From assembly GCF_017939625.1 (NCBI RefSeq), contig NZ_JAGKTC010000004.1, positions 1 through 64,000 of the forward strand: 64,000 nt of DNA, written 5' to 3'. Source of the stretch: Pseudoxanthomonas helianthi (lineage in GTDB: Bacteria > Pseudomonadota > Gammaproteobacteria > Xanthomonadales > Xanthomonadaceae). The notes beneath the pieces were generated by a model. It saw only the letters and a list, made by a program, of their open reading frames with translations. It made no database searches and had not been told where the DNA came from. Below, piece after piece: positions 18,360 to 64,000 of the stretch (positions are counted from its first letter, which is position 1; every line of letters begins with the position of its first letter). A program made the position numbers and the translations under genes.

Positions 18360-18452
18360 GGAGAGGTGTCCGAGTGGTTGAAGGAGCACGCCTGGAAAGT
18401 GTGTAAGCGTCTAAACCGCGCTTCGGGGGTTCGAATCCCCCTCTCTCCGCCA
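18360..18452 (+). tRNA. tRNA-Ser (GGA)
   Basis: 93 nt with encoded CCA. Acceptor GGAGAGG pairs with TCTCTCC (one G-T), the anticodon loop is CTGGAAA (anticodon GGA), and it has the long class II variable arm. The last 14 bp (CCCTCTCTCCGCCA) recur at 62456-62469 beside an integrase gene, so this gene is the likely attachment site of the island that follows. Confidence 0.96.
18439..18452 (+). other. Putative attL: 3' end of tRNA-Ser
   Basis: CCCTCTCTCCGCCA, identical to 62456-62469 in the same orientation. Identity stops at both ends, so the core is only 14 bp. It marks the left border of the island by inference. Confidence 0.65.
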
Positions 18453-59770: not shown

Positions 59771-60064
59771 CTACTCATGGTTCACCGTCCAACCCTCCTC
59801 ACGCAGGCACTCCAACAACTCGTTGGCCACGAACCAGCGATGCCCGTTGGACCACCTGAACACCTTCTTGGTCCGCGTGCTCGCCAATAACAGCAGCGGT
59901 ACGGATAACCGCGAGTCGAGGGCGTCCAGGTCGGTCGACTGCAGCGGGCGCCCAAGGACGCTTTCAGCGCGCGTGACGGCCCACTGACAGGCGCGTAACG
60001 GAATGTCACTGCCGGCGGGCTGCATATCGAACAGGCGGCGACCCAGCAAAGCTTGCGTGCTCAT
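59771..60064 (-). CDS. Small island protein of unknown function
   Basis: 97 residues with no recognised domain. Its ATG overlaps the alpA stop (ATGA), so it is translated with AlpA. It lies between alpA and the replication gene, a common position for small satellite accessory proteins. Confidence 0.65.
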   Translation of the reverse strand: MSTQALLGRRLFDMQPAGSDIPLRACQWAVTRAESVLGRPLQSTDLDALDSRLSVPLLLLASTRTKKVFRWSNGHRWFVANELLECLREEGWTVNHE

Positions 60065-60282
60065 TTGGCCTCCTTACTGATACCTTGGGCATCCAGCCAC
60101 TGGAGGACCTCGGAGACGCGCCAAGCGGAGATGTGCCCAGGCAATCGGATCGGACGGGGAAAGTCGCCCGTACGAATGCGGCGCCACAACGTGGCGGCAG
60201 CGAACGGCAAGACGGGCAACAAGTCGCGCTGACGGATCAGCGCATTGGGCGGCAACTGCGCCCAGTTGATGGGGTAATTCAA
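60061..60282 (-). CDS. AlpA-family excision/regulatory protein
   Basis: The 73-residue protein is a MerR-like winged helix: LIRQRDLLPVLPFAAATLWRRIRTGDFPRPIRLPG, then AWRVSEVLQWLDAQG. AlpA proteins act as excisionase and transcription activator of integrase or replication genes in P4-like and other satellites. It sits between the integrase side and the replication gene. Confidence 0.9.
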   Translation of the reverse strand: MNYPINWAQLPPNALIRQRDLLPVLPFAAATLWRRIRTGDFPRPIRLPGHISAWRVSEVLQWLDAQGISKEAK

Positions 60283-60349
60283 AGTTCTGACTCCATCTGG
60301 GGTGGGATGAGTCAGCCTGAAGATTCCGGGAAATGCCTCTCGCCGATAT

Positions 60350-61108
60350 CTAGCCCGAAACTCCTTTCACCTCGAACTTGACCCCCAGAATGGCCATTAC
60401 CGCCTTGGCAAACTGATCAGTGCTCCTGGGCGGTGGCGGATTATTCGGGTCACGGTTGGTCTCCCGCCAGTCCGCTTCGCGCCGAGGATGAAGATGCTTG
60501 AGGTACAGCGCGCCCAGTTCTCGCTCGAACATGTCTCGCGCTGCACGAAACCGTTTGGTGAAGGCCTTAGGAGGCTGCACTCGTTCGCAGACATCAATCA
60601 CCACTTCCAGAGCGTGAGCAAACTCTTCTCTATGTGGCTCCCAAAGTCGCACACGCACGATGTGTAGCCGCAGCAGCTGCCTGGCTTCCAAGAAAGCGCT
60701 CCGCTCTTCCATCGCCGAGATCTGCGCATCGGTCAAGCCGGGGAAAGCATGCAGCGATTGGCTCAGGGCCTGCGCTGCCTTAAAGCAGCCCTGATCATCT
60801 TTCAGCTCGGCGTGCTGATTCACCAACCTCTGCACGAGCTTGGCCCGCTGAAGCAGTGTTTCTATGTCGCGCTTCTCATCGCCAACGGAAGCCTGCTTGA
60901 CCAGCGCGTGTTCCGTGGCGCAGTAGGAACCATGGGCAAGCCAGAGTGCCTCCAGATAAGCATCGCAGTCGGCGACTTCATCGCGATCCAGTCCGTACTG
61001 CTCACCGATTTCCAGCAGTTGCTTTTTTTCCGGCGCACTAAATGGTCGGCCACCGACACCCGAGATCGGCTTGGACCTGACCTTACGCGGGCGCCCGCTT
61101 TTGTTCAC
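60350..61108 (-). CDS. Island protein of unknown function coupled to the integrase
   Basis: The 252-residue protein begins with a basic GRPRKVRSKP stretch (AT-hook-like) and is otherwise helical, charged and without a recognised fold. Its ATG overlaps the integrase stop codon (ATGA), so it is translated from the integrase mRNA. Similar uncharacterised proteins follow integrases in many islands. Confidence 0.75.
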   Translation of the reverse strand: MNKSGRPRKVRSKPISGVGGRPFSAPEKKQLLEIGEQYGLDRDEVADCDAYLEALWLAHGSYCATEHALVKQASVGDEKRDIETLLQRAKLVQRLVNQHAELKDDQGCFKAAQALSQSLHAFPGLTDAQISAMEERSAFLEARQLLRLHIVRVRLWEPHREEFAHALEVVIDVCERVQPPKAFTKRFRAARDMFERELGALYLKHLHPRREADWRETNRDPNNPPPPRSTDQFAKAVMAILGVKFEVKGVSG

Positions 61109-62289
61109 TTCTTGCCACCAGCCGCAAATTTCGCCCAGTCCGCCATCATTGCCGTGCGCTTGGAGAACAGATCCCCGCGCCGATAGGCCGCTTCAACCTT
61201 GTCCCCGATCGTATGGGCCAAGGCCATCTCGGCCACGTCCCGCGGGTACTCCGTGTGCTCGGCCGCCCAGTCGCGGAAAGTGGAGCGAAAACCGTGGGGC
61301 ACGGCATCCACGTCCATGCGGCGCATCAGTGCCGTCAGAGCCATGTCCGAGAGCATGCCGCCACGCTCAGCCGGAAACAGGAGCGGCGTGTGCGCAAATC
61401 GAGGCAGCTTCTTCAGCAAAGCTACCGTGCGCGCCGTCAGCGGCACCCGATGTTCCTTGCCTGCCTTCATGCGGCTGGCCGGAATGGTCCAGACATTTTC
61501 CTTCAGGTCGATCTCTTCCCACGTGGCCCCGCGTACCTCCCCGCTGCGCGTAGCCGTGAGGATCAGGAACTCCAGCGCGCGCGCACTGGCGCCTTCACGT
61601 TTGCGCAGTTGGGCAACAAAGGCCGACAGTTGGCTCAAGGGCAGCGCACGGTGGTGCTCGACCTTGGCCACCTTGCCGGGCTTGGCCAACACCGCATCCA
61701 GGTTGCCGCGCCAGCGCGCGGGGTTCTCACCCTTGCGAAAACCCGAGGCTCCGGCCCAGGCTAACACCGCTTCCAGTCGCGCCCGCAGGCGGGTGGCTGT
61801 CTCGGTCTTCTCGATCCAGATCGGGCTCAGTATCTCGACGACGTGGCGCAGCTCCACCTGGTCCACCGGCATGTTGCCCACCACCGGCTTGGCATAGGTA
61901 TCCAGCGTGCTCTTCCATTGCTCGGCGTGCTTGGCGCTCTTCCACTCCGGCCGCTTGGCCTCGATGGTGCGTCGGGCACATTCGGAGAAGGAAGGGGTTT
62001 CGCGCAGAACCGTCTTGGCTGCCCTACGGGCTTCGATGGGATCGATCCCCTCCTCGATCTTGCGTCGGGCCTGACGCGCTCGATCGCGGGCCTCAGCCAA
62101 GGGAACATCGGGCCATCCTCCCAGCCCCATATCGCGCCGCCGGTTGCCCACGGTGACGCGCAGAATCCAGTTCCTGGCCCCGGAGGGCGCCACACGCAGG
62201 TACAATCCCGTCGCTCCGCCAGCGGCATGCATGCCAACCGGCAGGCGCGGTAGCTGGGCCGCGGCGATCTCCTTGGTTTTCTTGGGCAT
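61105..62289 (-). CDS. Tyrosine integrase of the tRNA-Ser island
   Basis: The 394-residue protein has an N-terminal DUF4102-type arm-binding domain (about 1-90: GLYLRVAPSGARNWILRV, MGLGGWPDVPLAEARDRARQ), a SAM-like core (about 100-190) and the catalytic domain (about 215-375). The catalytic residues are Arg in TATRSGEVRG, His and Arg in PHGFRSTFRDW, His in ALAHTIGDKVE and Tyr in AAYRRGD. This P4-type family commonly uses tRNA genes as target. It lies about 165 bp from the right att copy and reads into the island. Confidence 0.94.
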   Translation of the reverse strand: MPKKTKEIAAAQLPRLPVGMHAAGGATGLYLRVAPSGARNWILRVTVGNRRRDMGLGGWPDVPLAEARDRARQARRKIEEGIDPIEARRAAKTVLRETPSFSECARRTIEAKRPEWKSAKHAEQWKSTLDTYAKPVVGNMPVDQVELRHVVEILSPIWIEKTETATRLRARLEAVLAWAGASGFRKGENPARWRGNLDAVLAKPGKVAKVEHHRALPLSQLSAFVAQLRKREGASARALEFLILTATRSGEVRGATWEEIDLKENVWTIPASRMKAGKEHRVPLTARTVALLKKLPRFAHTPLLFPAERGGMLSDMALTALMRRMDVDAVPHGFRSTFRDWAAEHTEYPRDVAEMALAHTIGDKVEAAYRRGDLFSKRTAMMADWAKFAAGGKK

Positions 62290-62455
62290 CGCACGTCTCC
62301 GCCGAACTCTGCTTTCCCAACATCCCGACCTACAGGCCGAGATGCGATTGGAGGGTACGGTATGCGACTGCGTGAGACAAGCAAGCCCTTGGTATCAAAG
62401 GCGTTTCGAGTTTTCTGAGACGGCGTGATACCATCTGAATCGCGGCGGAGAGTGT

Positions 62456-62469
62456 CCCTCTCTCCGCCA
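62456..62469 (+). other. Putative attR: copy of the tRNA-Ser 3' end
   Basis: CCCTCTCTCCGCCA, identical to 18439-18452 and in the same orientation. It lies between the integrase gene and the ffs gene and is not part of a complete tRNA. It also forms the right arm of a local dyad (GGCGGAGAG ... CTCTCCGCC). Confidence 0.65.
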
Positions 62470-62508
62470 GATTTTTAAGATCGCGTCGTGGACGCATCTC
62501 GTTTCTAT

Positions 62509-62620
62509 GGTGACCCCGTCGGTCCCTCGCGACGCTAGATCGAAAATCCCGCCAGGGCCGGAAGGCAGCAACGGTATCGGTCGATGCGGGCGCCGAGGAT
62601 AGCCGGCGGGGTCATCGCCT
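62509..62620 (+). ncRNA. ffs: 4.5S signal recognition particle RNA
   Basis: It contains the Ffh-binding core CAGGGCCGGAAGGCAGCAAC, very close to the E. coli 4.5S loop. The ends pair: GGTGACCCC at the 5' side with GGGGTCATC at the 3' side, giving a long hairpin of about 110 nt. Exact ends are estimated from the pairing. SRP RNA with Ffh targets membrane proteins. In the uninterrupted chromosome it would lie just downstream of tRNA-Ser. Confidence 0.88.
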
Positions 62621-62924
62621 TTTCGGGTTTGGTCGATACAGCCAGCCACTCACTGCCCCCGGCCGTTGCGACGGCATCATTGACATTGAACGGGACGCCT
62701 CTCGCGGCGCGGCAGCAACGGTATCGACTGACACGGGCGCCGAGGATCGTCGGCGGGGCCGCCGCCTTTTTGGGCCGGTCGATGCATTCAGCCACTCACT
62801 GCCCTTGGCCGTTGCGACGGCATCATTGACATTGAACGGGACACCTCTCGCGGCGCGGCAGCGACGGTATCGACCGACGCGGGCGCCGAGGATCGTCGGC
62901 GGGGCCGCCGCCTTTTCGGGCCCA
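62564..62924 (+). repeat. Tandem repeat of about 146 bp derived from the 3' half of ffs
   Basis: Units begin at 62564 (inside the real ffs), 62711 and 62857. Periods are 147 and 146 bp; the last unit is partial. Each repeats GGCAGC(A/G)ACGGTATCG and the 3' stem (GGGCGCCGAGGAT ... GGCGGGG). A shared linker holds CATCATTGACATTGAACGGG. The two extra units lack the GGGCCGGAAGG segment needed for Ffh binding. Confidence 0.85.
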
Positions 62925-62926
62925 AG

Positions 62927-62960
62927 AAAAAACCGGAGCCAGGCTCCGGTTTTTTTATTT
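62927..62960. terminator. Bidirectional terminator between ffs repeats and nuoN
   Basis: Stem ACCGGAGCC / GGCTCCGGT with a 1-nt centre, flanked by A-run on the left and T-run on the right. It can terminate both the ffs transcript (+) and the nuo operon (-), which converge here. Confidence 0.9.
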
Positions 62961-62980
62961 TCGCGGTTGCGGCGAGACGC

Positions 62981-64000
62981 TTATGCGAACGCCGCCTGGC
63001 ACCAGGCCATGATCGGGTTCCAGAAGATGCCCAGCACCAGCAAGCCCAGCGCGTTCGCCCCGAACACCAGCGGCAAGGCCCGACCCTCGCGCGGCGCGCG
63101 CGCTTCGCCGACCGGCTCGTCGAAATACATCACCTTGATCACGCGCAGGTAGTAGAAAGCGCCGATCACCGCGCAGACGACCGCGAGGATCGCCAGCCAC
63201 AGGTAGCTGCCGTTCAGCGCCGCGCGCAGCACCGCCAGCTTGGACCAGAAGCCGAGGAACGGCGGCACGCCGGCCAGCGAAGCCATCACGCACAGCACCA
63301 GGCCGGCCTGCCACGGGTTGCGCGCGTTCAGGCCCTTGAAGTCGTCGATCTTGTCGGCTTCGAAACCCTGCCGCGACAGCACCACGATGGCGCCGAACGC
63401 CGCCGCCGACATCAACGCGTAACTGATCGCGTAGAACAGCGCCGCCGCATAGCCTTCCTTGCCGCCGCCGGCCAGGCCGAGGAACAGGAAGCCGACGTGC
63501 GAGATGGTCGAGTACGCCAGCATGCGCTTCAGGTTGCTCTGGGCGATGGCGATCAGGTTGCCGAGCACCAACGACACCGCGGCCAGACCGGCCAGCAGCG
63601 GTTCCCACTGCGCCGACAGCGGGCCGACGCCATCCTCGAACAGGCGGAAGGCCATGCCGAACGCGGCCAGCTTCGGTGCCGAGCTGATGAACAGGGTGAT
63701 CGGGGTCGGGGCGCCCTGGTAGACGTCGGGCAGCCACATGTGGAACGGCGCCGCGCCGAACTTGAAGGCGACGCCGGCGACCATGAACACCACGCCGGTC
63801 AGCAGCAGCACGCGGTTGTCGCCGCCTCCGGCGGTGATCGCCTCGGCCAGCGTGCGGATGCCGCCGAGGTTCAGCGTACCGGTCGCGCCGTAGACCAGCG
63901 ACATGCCGTACAGCAGCAGGCCCGAGGCGATCGAGCCGAGCACGATGTACTTCATCGCCGCTTCGGTCGACAGGCCGTCGTCGCGGTTCAGCGCGACCAG
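62981..64000 (-). CDS. nuoN: NADH-quinone oxidoreductase subunit N, C-terminal part (5' end outside window)
   Basis: The frame is open to the right edge; 339 residues are present. NuoN is an antiporter-like proton-pumping membrane subunit of complex I. Visible motifs include TEAAMKYIVLGSIASG, FKFGAAPFHMWLPDVYQGAP (conserved Lys region), and the helix containing NLKRMLAYSTISHVGF with its buried Lys. About nine helices remain. As last gene of the nuo operon it ends at the bidirectional terminator. Confidence 0.96.
   Translation of the reverse strand: MVALNRDDGLSTEAAMKYIVLGSIASGLLLYGMSLVYGATGTLNLGGIRTLAEAITAGGGDNRVLLLTGVVFMVAGVAFKFGAAPFHMWLPDVYQGAPTPITLFISSAPKLAAFGMAFRLFEDGVGPLSAQWEPLLAGLAAVSLVLGNLIAIAQSNLKRMLAYSTISHVGFLFLGLAGGGKEGYAAALFYAISYALMSAAAFGAIVVLSRQGFEADKIDDFKGLNARNPWQAGLVLCVMASLAGVPPFLGFWSKLAVLRAALNGSYLWLAILAVVCAVIGAFYYLRVIKVMYFDEPVGEARAPREGRALPLVFGANALGLLVLGIFWNPIMAWCQAAFA

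Follow-up and report, generated by a model that had tools for sequence, protein, structure and literature searches.

The insertion sequences IS1549 and IS1634 are reported to have long, variable direct repeats of 8-514 bp, for which, according to a 2008 paper, no mechanistic model existed at that time (PMC2266710). The YPAL/RU-2 repeats of Yersinia are 168 bp long, carry internal inverted repeats, are not A+T-rich and make variable target duplications of 3-26 bp; the same paper places the Rickettsia palindromic elements (RPE) in frame within protein genes and in RNA genes, gives them a length of 105-146 bp and terminal inverted repeats, and marks their target duplication as unknown (PMC2229807). 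REP sequences and REPINs are short hairpin-bearing repeats, sometimes found in tandem clusters that include their flanks (PMC3116915); REPs have a GT(A/G)G head and usually more than 100 copies per genome (PMC2817692), and elements of the IS200/IS605 type are described there as making no larger target duplications.

In the window, the whole 64,000-nt stretch of DNA that was analysed, the SRP RNA gene ffs is followed by an array in which pieces of the gene's 3' end alternate with a 67-nt sequence, which we call element E. The kinds nearest to E are IS1634/IS1549, YPAL, the REPINs and the Rickettsia palindromic elements, and it can be placed as a member of none of them. E shares with IS1549/IS1634 long and variable direct repeats, which beside E measure 24 to at least 70 nt and are lacking at 48 of 99 copies, but these insertion sequences are 1.5-2 kb long and encode a transposase, whereas E has 67 nt. 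Held against the features of a MITE of that family, E has no terminal inverted repeats (the consensus of alignment A2, read by eye, ends GCNATTCATTG...GGCGCG), and the cognate IS1634-type transposase exceeds the cut-off in 0 of 38 genomes of the genus, Pseudoxanthomonas, with sub-cut-off matches in G010 and G013. YPAL and E are both small and of mobile type, with variable duplications, but YPAL is enterobacterial and 168 bp long while E is shorter with longer duplications; the two are set apart by description. E resembles the REPs and REPINs in its hairpin and its tandem clusters, yet it lacks the GT(A/G)G head (the A2 consensus before the hairpin reads GCNATTCATTGNCNCCT by eye) and reaches 2-17 matches per genome in the eight genomes searched more deeply (expectation value at most 0.05, with 150 candidates scored in each), counts in which degenerate copies are under-represented. 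The RPEs and E both lie in open frames of protein genes, in the case of E in pseudopilin leaders, and the RPEs are the longer.

Downstream of tyrT in E. coli, the rtT repeats carry the tRNA-Tyr 3' end in tandem with a spacer, in a 178-bp unit. They are like the array in the window in that the 3' end of a stable RNA gene stands in tandem with a spacer; we know of no dispersed spacer element at rtT. E shows two attributes of a small non-autonomous mobile repeat, a discrete extent with target duplication and presence at loci that are unrelated to one another, and we file it as a new variant among such bacterial repeats. It is unusual in combining a very small footprint-maker with very long, variable target duplications. 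Among the matches listed in a literature search limited to open-licence texts, none dealt with E or with tandem copies of ffs, which is weak evidence that it is unpublished. The array and its surroundings are composed as follows.

62516 to 62612, plus strand: ffs, an intact gene for the small bacterial SRP RNA (Rfam RF00169, 64.5 bits, expectation value 3.6e-13, full model 1-97).
62564 to 62644, plus strand: stretch read as the original target and first duplication copy, made up of the ffs 3' part, the terminator T run (62620-62623) and a short leader to the first E copy (repeat family D2; anchored alignment across that copy).
62645 to 62711, plus strand: element E, copy 1, 67 nt, hairpin GCCGT-TGCG-ACGGC (model R1 57.7 bits, model R2 71.1 bits).
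62712 to 62790, plus strand: target stretch, second copy, with the ffs 3' part from GCAGC, a terminator-like stem and a T run (repeat family, anchored alignment).
62791 to 62857, plus strand: element E, copy 2 (R1 53.0 bits, R2 68.2 bits).
62858 to 62922, plus strand: target stretch, third copy; similarity stops at GGGCC (62918-62922), after which flanking DNA follows (sequence reading, repeat family, anchored alignment).
62923 to 62960, no strand assigned: likely pre-insertion downstream flank, with the terminator-like inverted repeat AAAAAACCGGAGCC/GGCTCCGGTTTTTT (by eye).

The matches of the two E copies to R1, a sequence-only model, and R2, a hairpin model, hold by construction, since both copies are in the training alignments. 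A repeat-family search divides the DNA 3' of ffs into two 146-nt units (62631-62776 and 62777-62922; mutual identity 93%) and finds a 64-nt stretch of the ffs 3' part and terminator in triplicate, at 62564, 62711 and 62857 (spacing 147 and 146), its two downstream copies being 83% and 86% identical to the gene; TRF reports a single array at 62564-62922 with period 146 and score 569. A search of the rest of the window's own genome with the 146-nt unit gave no match (expectation value up to 0.001). These results bear out an earlier sequence-only reading, in which the 3' part of ffs was said to recur twice at 146-147 bp with an altered 3' stem (the copies have GGGGCCGCC where ffs has GGGGTCATC) and with the Ffh-binding loop missing from both copies, where homology begins at GGCAGC, downstream of the loop. 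The same reading supposed that about 30 nt had been lost inside each copy, and here it has to be corrected: the copies lack the entire 5' half of ffs and resemble the gene from GGCAGC onward, and the CTCGCG-like bases in front of GGCAGC form the 3' end of a separate 67-nt element that is found at unrelated loci. The place of the "missing 30 nt" is a junction at which E ends and the duplicated target begins. The copies are duplications, as had been proposed, although target-site duplications beside a small mobile element describe them better than decayed copies of a gene. The right-hand ffs copies score 0.82 and 0.84 against the present ffs and 0.93 and 0.91 against the ffs of genome G006 (first 56 nt); being closer to the latter, they may retain an older allele of the gene.

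An alignment of 23 copies (A1) defines E as a nearly gapless 67-nt sequence between the ffs pieces. Its 3' end, GGCGCG, is fixed; its 5' end reads GCNATTCAYT and is less sharply set, because at several ffs loci the duplication is separated from GCNATT by additional bases that vary in number. The alignments A1 and A2 omit the ffs-side copies that have no recognisable 3' end (G014, G023 and the last of G034), a false hit in coding DNA (G015) and the 5'-truncated copies of G027, G013 and G035. The centre of E is a hairpin, GCCGT-NGCG-ACGGC, for which an alternative stem, GCGCGT-NGCG-ACGCGC, is found at other loci. The proportion of paired cells (93.3%) and the covariation score were each matched by 0 of 500 shuffles, and the double changes, counted as pairs, cells and types, were reached by 2, 2 and 11 of 500, all counts that related sequences inflate and in which the outermost pair of the hairpin fails in 14 of 40. 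A larger RNA structure finds no support: the consensus fold of the first 23 copies has 9 pairs, none of them with a double change, so that the short hairpin is the one structure with support. The 3' part of E also occurs by itself in tandem with the same right end, for example as three 30-nt copies at locus L168.

Searches with R1 and R2 place E after the stop codon of parE, at the beginning of a putative sbcB and behind, near or within other genes; sbcB, psd and the cytochrome gene are putative names given by reading of the sequence. Across genera, E lies at ffs in three, at parE in six and at sbcB in two, and another genus has four tandem E units behind parE. The end of the parE query matches TIGR01055, and parE is present in 38 of 38 genus genomes; 32 of these were inspected by eye at the parE end, where some have E with a copy of the parE end, some have E alone and several have neither, as is the case in the window's own genome. 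At parE of G018 an E-like stretch can be seen by eye that the R2 search did not report. Several genera have E at parE, ffs and sbcB, which may reflect an ancient presence there and not repeated insertion. With R2, matches occur in 29 of 38 genus genomes (expectation value up to 0.05) and, at 1e-4, in 35 of 345 genomes of the family, belonging to 10 of 54 genera (about 15 candidates scored per genome); within the class, one of 369 genomes matched, the window's own, in a sample that drew few family members (14 candidates scored per genome). With R1 (expectation value up to 0.001), five genomes of other families in the order match (G044, G057, G119, G129, G273) and count against a strict family limit for E; the match in G044 (L125), the one of the five that was read, is in apparent coding DNA and is probably due to chance. 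Twenty loci held no tRNA gene adjoining an E copy, and one 68-nt E copy (from L168) had no match among the plasmids of PLSDB. A scan of named genomes for an exact 21-nt pattern from E returned two records, one from Pseudoxanthomonas wuyuanensis and one from a Bacteroidales MAG (L054; DBYD01000024.1, 1313-1333, minus strand), the latter of which could reflect chance, contamination or transfer.

Directly 3' of E's last base there is often a partial copy of whatever sequence precedes E, 24 to at least 70 nt long in a comparison window of 70 nt that cuts longer ones. The duplication at L177 has 41 nt with 4 mismatches and abuts E on both sides; that at L111 repeats 45 nt of the parE end, that at L183 36 nt of another gene's end, with four E copies, and those at L186, L197 and L176 have 31, 69 and 24 nt. 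Behind the putative psd of L185 (G026:C6:1082910 and 1083110), a stretch of about 130 nt that lies between two E copies seems to be duplicated; no longer one was seen. In a test anchored by design at the E 3' end, a duplication scoring 18 or more was found at 51 of 99 E copies, in eight locus classes. Of the controls, flanks shifted by 160-340 nt reached this score in 20 of 386 cases and left flanks taken from E copies drawn at random in 32 of 396; array units and orthologues raise both figures, and neither the copies in one array nor orthologous loci count as independent. By class, duplications are present at 12 of 17 ffs loci (16 genomes), 12 of 18 parE loci, 4 of 6 sbcB loci, 1 of 2 psd-like loci, the single cytochrome-like locus, one gene of G032, one locus of G034, 1 of 10 pseudopilin loci and 0 of 14 scattered loci. 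In many rows no more than 5 nt separate the end of the left copy from E, which the test does not impose. A hand count of the printed duplications in which no E precedes the left copy, over rows that are not independent, gives a G immediately before the left copy in 34 of 36 cases; E likewise ends in G. The 48 copies at which a clear duplication is missing include 15 of 16 pseudopilin copies and those at all 14 scattered loci, and some of them may be eroded or chance matches to the model. The set of 99 omits three of the 20 loci (L123, L124 and L125, of which two, L123 and L125, seem to be chance matches within coding DNA) and many weaker matches, such as most of those in G505 and those of G328, G019, G001, G008 and G033.

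Among genomes compared at one per species, ffs was detected in 59 of 61, including 36 of 37 of the genus (its own counted), with readable downstream DNA in 35 genus genomes. A strong 5'-truncated copy of ffs follows the gene in 10 of these 35 (scores of 31-66, when the maximum of 30 shuffles is at most 17), and the array is thus no peculiarity of one species. Weaker copies occur in G011 (23, shuffles 15) and in G002 (18, shuffles 16), whose ffs is the most like that of the window (97%), and 23 of the 35 have no downstream copy above the shuffles. The E hairpin stands between the gene and its copy in all ten genomes with a strong copy and lies within 50 nt of the ffs terminator region in 15 of the 35, a screen that undercounts degenerate copies because it used a regular expression for the hairpin. 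The point at which the ffs piece starts varies by species and by unit; read by eye, it is GGCAGC, GGTCAGCC, GGCCAGCC, GGCGCCGAGG, GATGCGG or GGCTGCC. Several draft contigs (G032:C29:14, G013:C318, C146 and G034:C169) end in or near ffs arrays, and the arrays are therefore probably undercounted in draft assemblies.

We propose that E is a non-autonomous mobile element of about 67 nt in the Lysobacteraceae/Xanthomonadaceae, whose insertion leaves a long, variable 3' target duplication; from the sequences compared, this is probably the correct account. At the locus in the window, E would have landed just behind ffs, with a duplicated stretch that starts inside the gene at GCAGC (or the preceding G), past the loop, and runs beyond the terminator. 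A duplication with these limits would leave the intact ffs to the left and, to the right, an ffs end that lacks the 5' part, and its start downstream of the loop would account for copies that lack the Ffh-binding loop. In a second round, unequal exchange or slippage between the direct repeats could then have produced the order ffs-E-ffs3'-E-ffs3'; doubling of an E-ffs3' unit is simpler than a second landing, because the two units share both boundaries as well as 93% identity. An enzyme supplied in trans would act on the hairpin and the ends of E. None of the candidates for this role, looked for by presence in the 38 genus genomes, stood out: the IS1634-type transposase, below its cut-off throughout, was rejected, and so were the reverse transcriptases, being uncorrelated (13 of 38 genus genomes) and missing from the array-bearing genomes G000, G035, G013, G034 and G036; the Y1 transposase domain, absent from the E-carrying G006 and G031, is near-ubiquitous (35 of 38 genus genomes), and its presence is for that reason uninformative.

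Insertion behind essential genes such as ffs and parE need not do harm, because the duplication can span the gene's end. Mobility of this kind suggests a route by which selfish DNA may enter essential loci without breaking them, and it would account for a puzzle of annotation, the broken ends of essential genes that lie behind the intact gene. A 67-nt element at alignable loci also offers a comparative system for the chemistry of long, variable target duplications. A more specific version of the proposal, to which we give little weight, is that E is propagated as free RNA or ssDNA, a single strand that has a fixed 3' end and primes or is joined at a target G, with its second end joined tens of bases away. 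The fixed 3' end, the less sharp or truncated 5' ends, the long variable duplications and the one shared junction base would then be SINE-like traits, and E, if this were true, the bacterial counterpart of a SINE.

The duplications could also have arisen locally, by replication slippage or microhomology-mediated template switching, with the right breakpoint pinned at the 3' end of E; E would then be long established and fixed in place, as a barrier or structured site, and not mobile. Such an origin is consistent with the G that so often precedes the left copy and matches E's last base (34 of 36 duplications), with the tandem copies of the E 3' part alone that share a right end at L168, and with the shared boundaries of the two units in the window. 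It predicts that E should come last, yet many arrays of the form (gene)(E-gene3')n end in gene3' (those of G000, G022, G028 and G036 and the single parE insertions), while in others, those of G027, G029, G035 and, at L183, G032, E does stand at or near the end. Local duplication also leaves E itself at unrelated loci unexplained, and we consider it an unlikely account.

That selection maintains the copies as functional small RNAs or as additional terminators seems to us very improbable. Every copy retains a terminator-like stem and a T run, and strong copies are present in 10 of 35 genus genomes; on the other side, the ffs piece does not begin at the same point in every species and unit, and 23 of 35 genomes have no copy above shuffles. 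The covariance models of Rfam match RF00169 only at 62516-62612 and find nothing at 62630-62930 up to an expectation value of 1; over 60000-64000 their matches are ffs and, upstream of the gene, two weak stretches below threshold (62438-62498). The folding z-score against shuffles is -2.28 for ffs, while three stretches over the copies give +1.45, +0.49 and +2.57, no better than shuffled sequence. A small RNA or SRP variant was rejected on these grounds, and the suggestion made at first reading that the copies are small RNAs of their own finds no support; a passive role as terminators is something the retained stems may allow. The copies are best seen as footprints, not genes. Least probable of all is an origin of the ffs pieces as scars of attachment sites, left by integrative elements for which the 3' end of ffs serves as attB. 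A tyrosine integrase gene does lie next door (61105-62289, minus strand), with 14 nt of a tRNA-Ser end beside it, but this repeated 14 nt comes from tRNA-Ser and not from ffs, and there is no common core, because the duplicated sequence differs at every locus.

Under the preferred reading of E as a mobile element, the leader of a pseudopilin, which is cut off by prepilin peptidase, would be another likely harmless place for it. Two genera (g29 and g87) have E upstream of pseudopilin genes, within an open frame, and ten loci have E modules in long open leaders of type II secretion pseudopilins (L164, L165, L167, L168, L169, L170, L171, L172, L175 and L200); the leaders of L171 and L200 are open with no ATG. 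A GFTLIE-like motif follows E in 15 of 16 copies, in constant frame relative to E (...RFxxVSRGDGII...QR|GFTLIE), with the module ending in QR or similar before the motif, and was not found for the remaining copy. The mature parts encoded at L172, L168 (two) and L169 pass the curated cut-offs as GspG, GspI, GspJ and XpsI, and that of L170 is T2SSI by Pfam; L164 falls below the NCBIfam cut-off, and neither L164 nor L171 has a Pfam match. In the sole pseudopilin copy above the duplication threshold, the duplicated sequence is the 3' part of E itself.

The DNA around ffs has further repeats of its own. The last 14 nt of tRNA-Ser(GGA) (CCCTCTCTCCGCCA) stand at 18439-18452 and again at 62456-62469, just before ffs, where they adjoin the tyrosine integrase gene (PF00589, PF13356, PF22022). 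An element of about 44 kb seems to have integrated between tRNA-Ser and ffs, since in several relatives tRNA-Ser is directly followed by ffs. At L030, L023, L033 and L031 (G010, G013, G028 and G012) a second, longer element of about 145 nt, with GGCGAAGCCGCCCGCAGGGCGA, lies between these two genes; it adjoins copies of the tRNA-Ser 3' end and is in tandem in G010 (by eye), and it looks like a similar arrangement to that of E, made by a different element. Downstream of ffs at L031 (G012), CTGTAGCACCGAGCTTGCTCGGCGG repeats resemble the GTAG-headed REPs of Stenotrophomonas, by eye against the table in PMC2817692.
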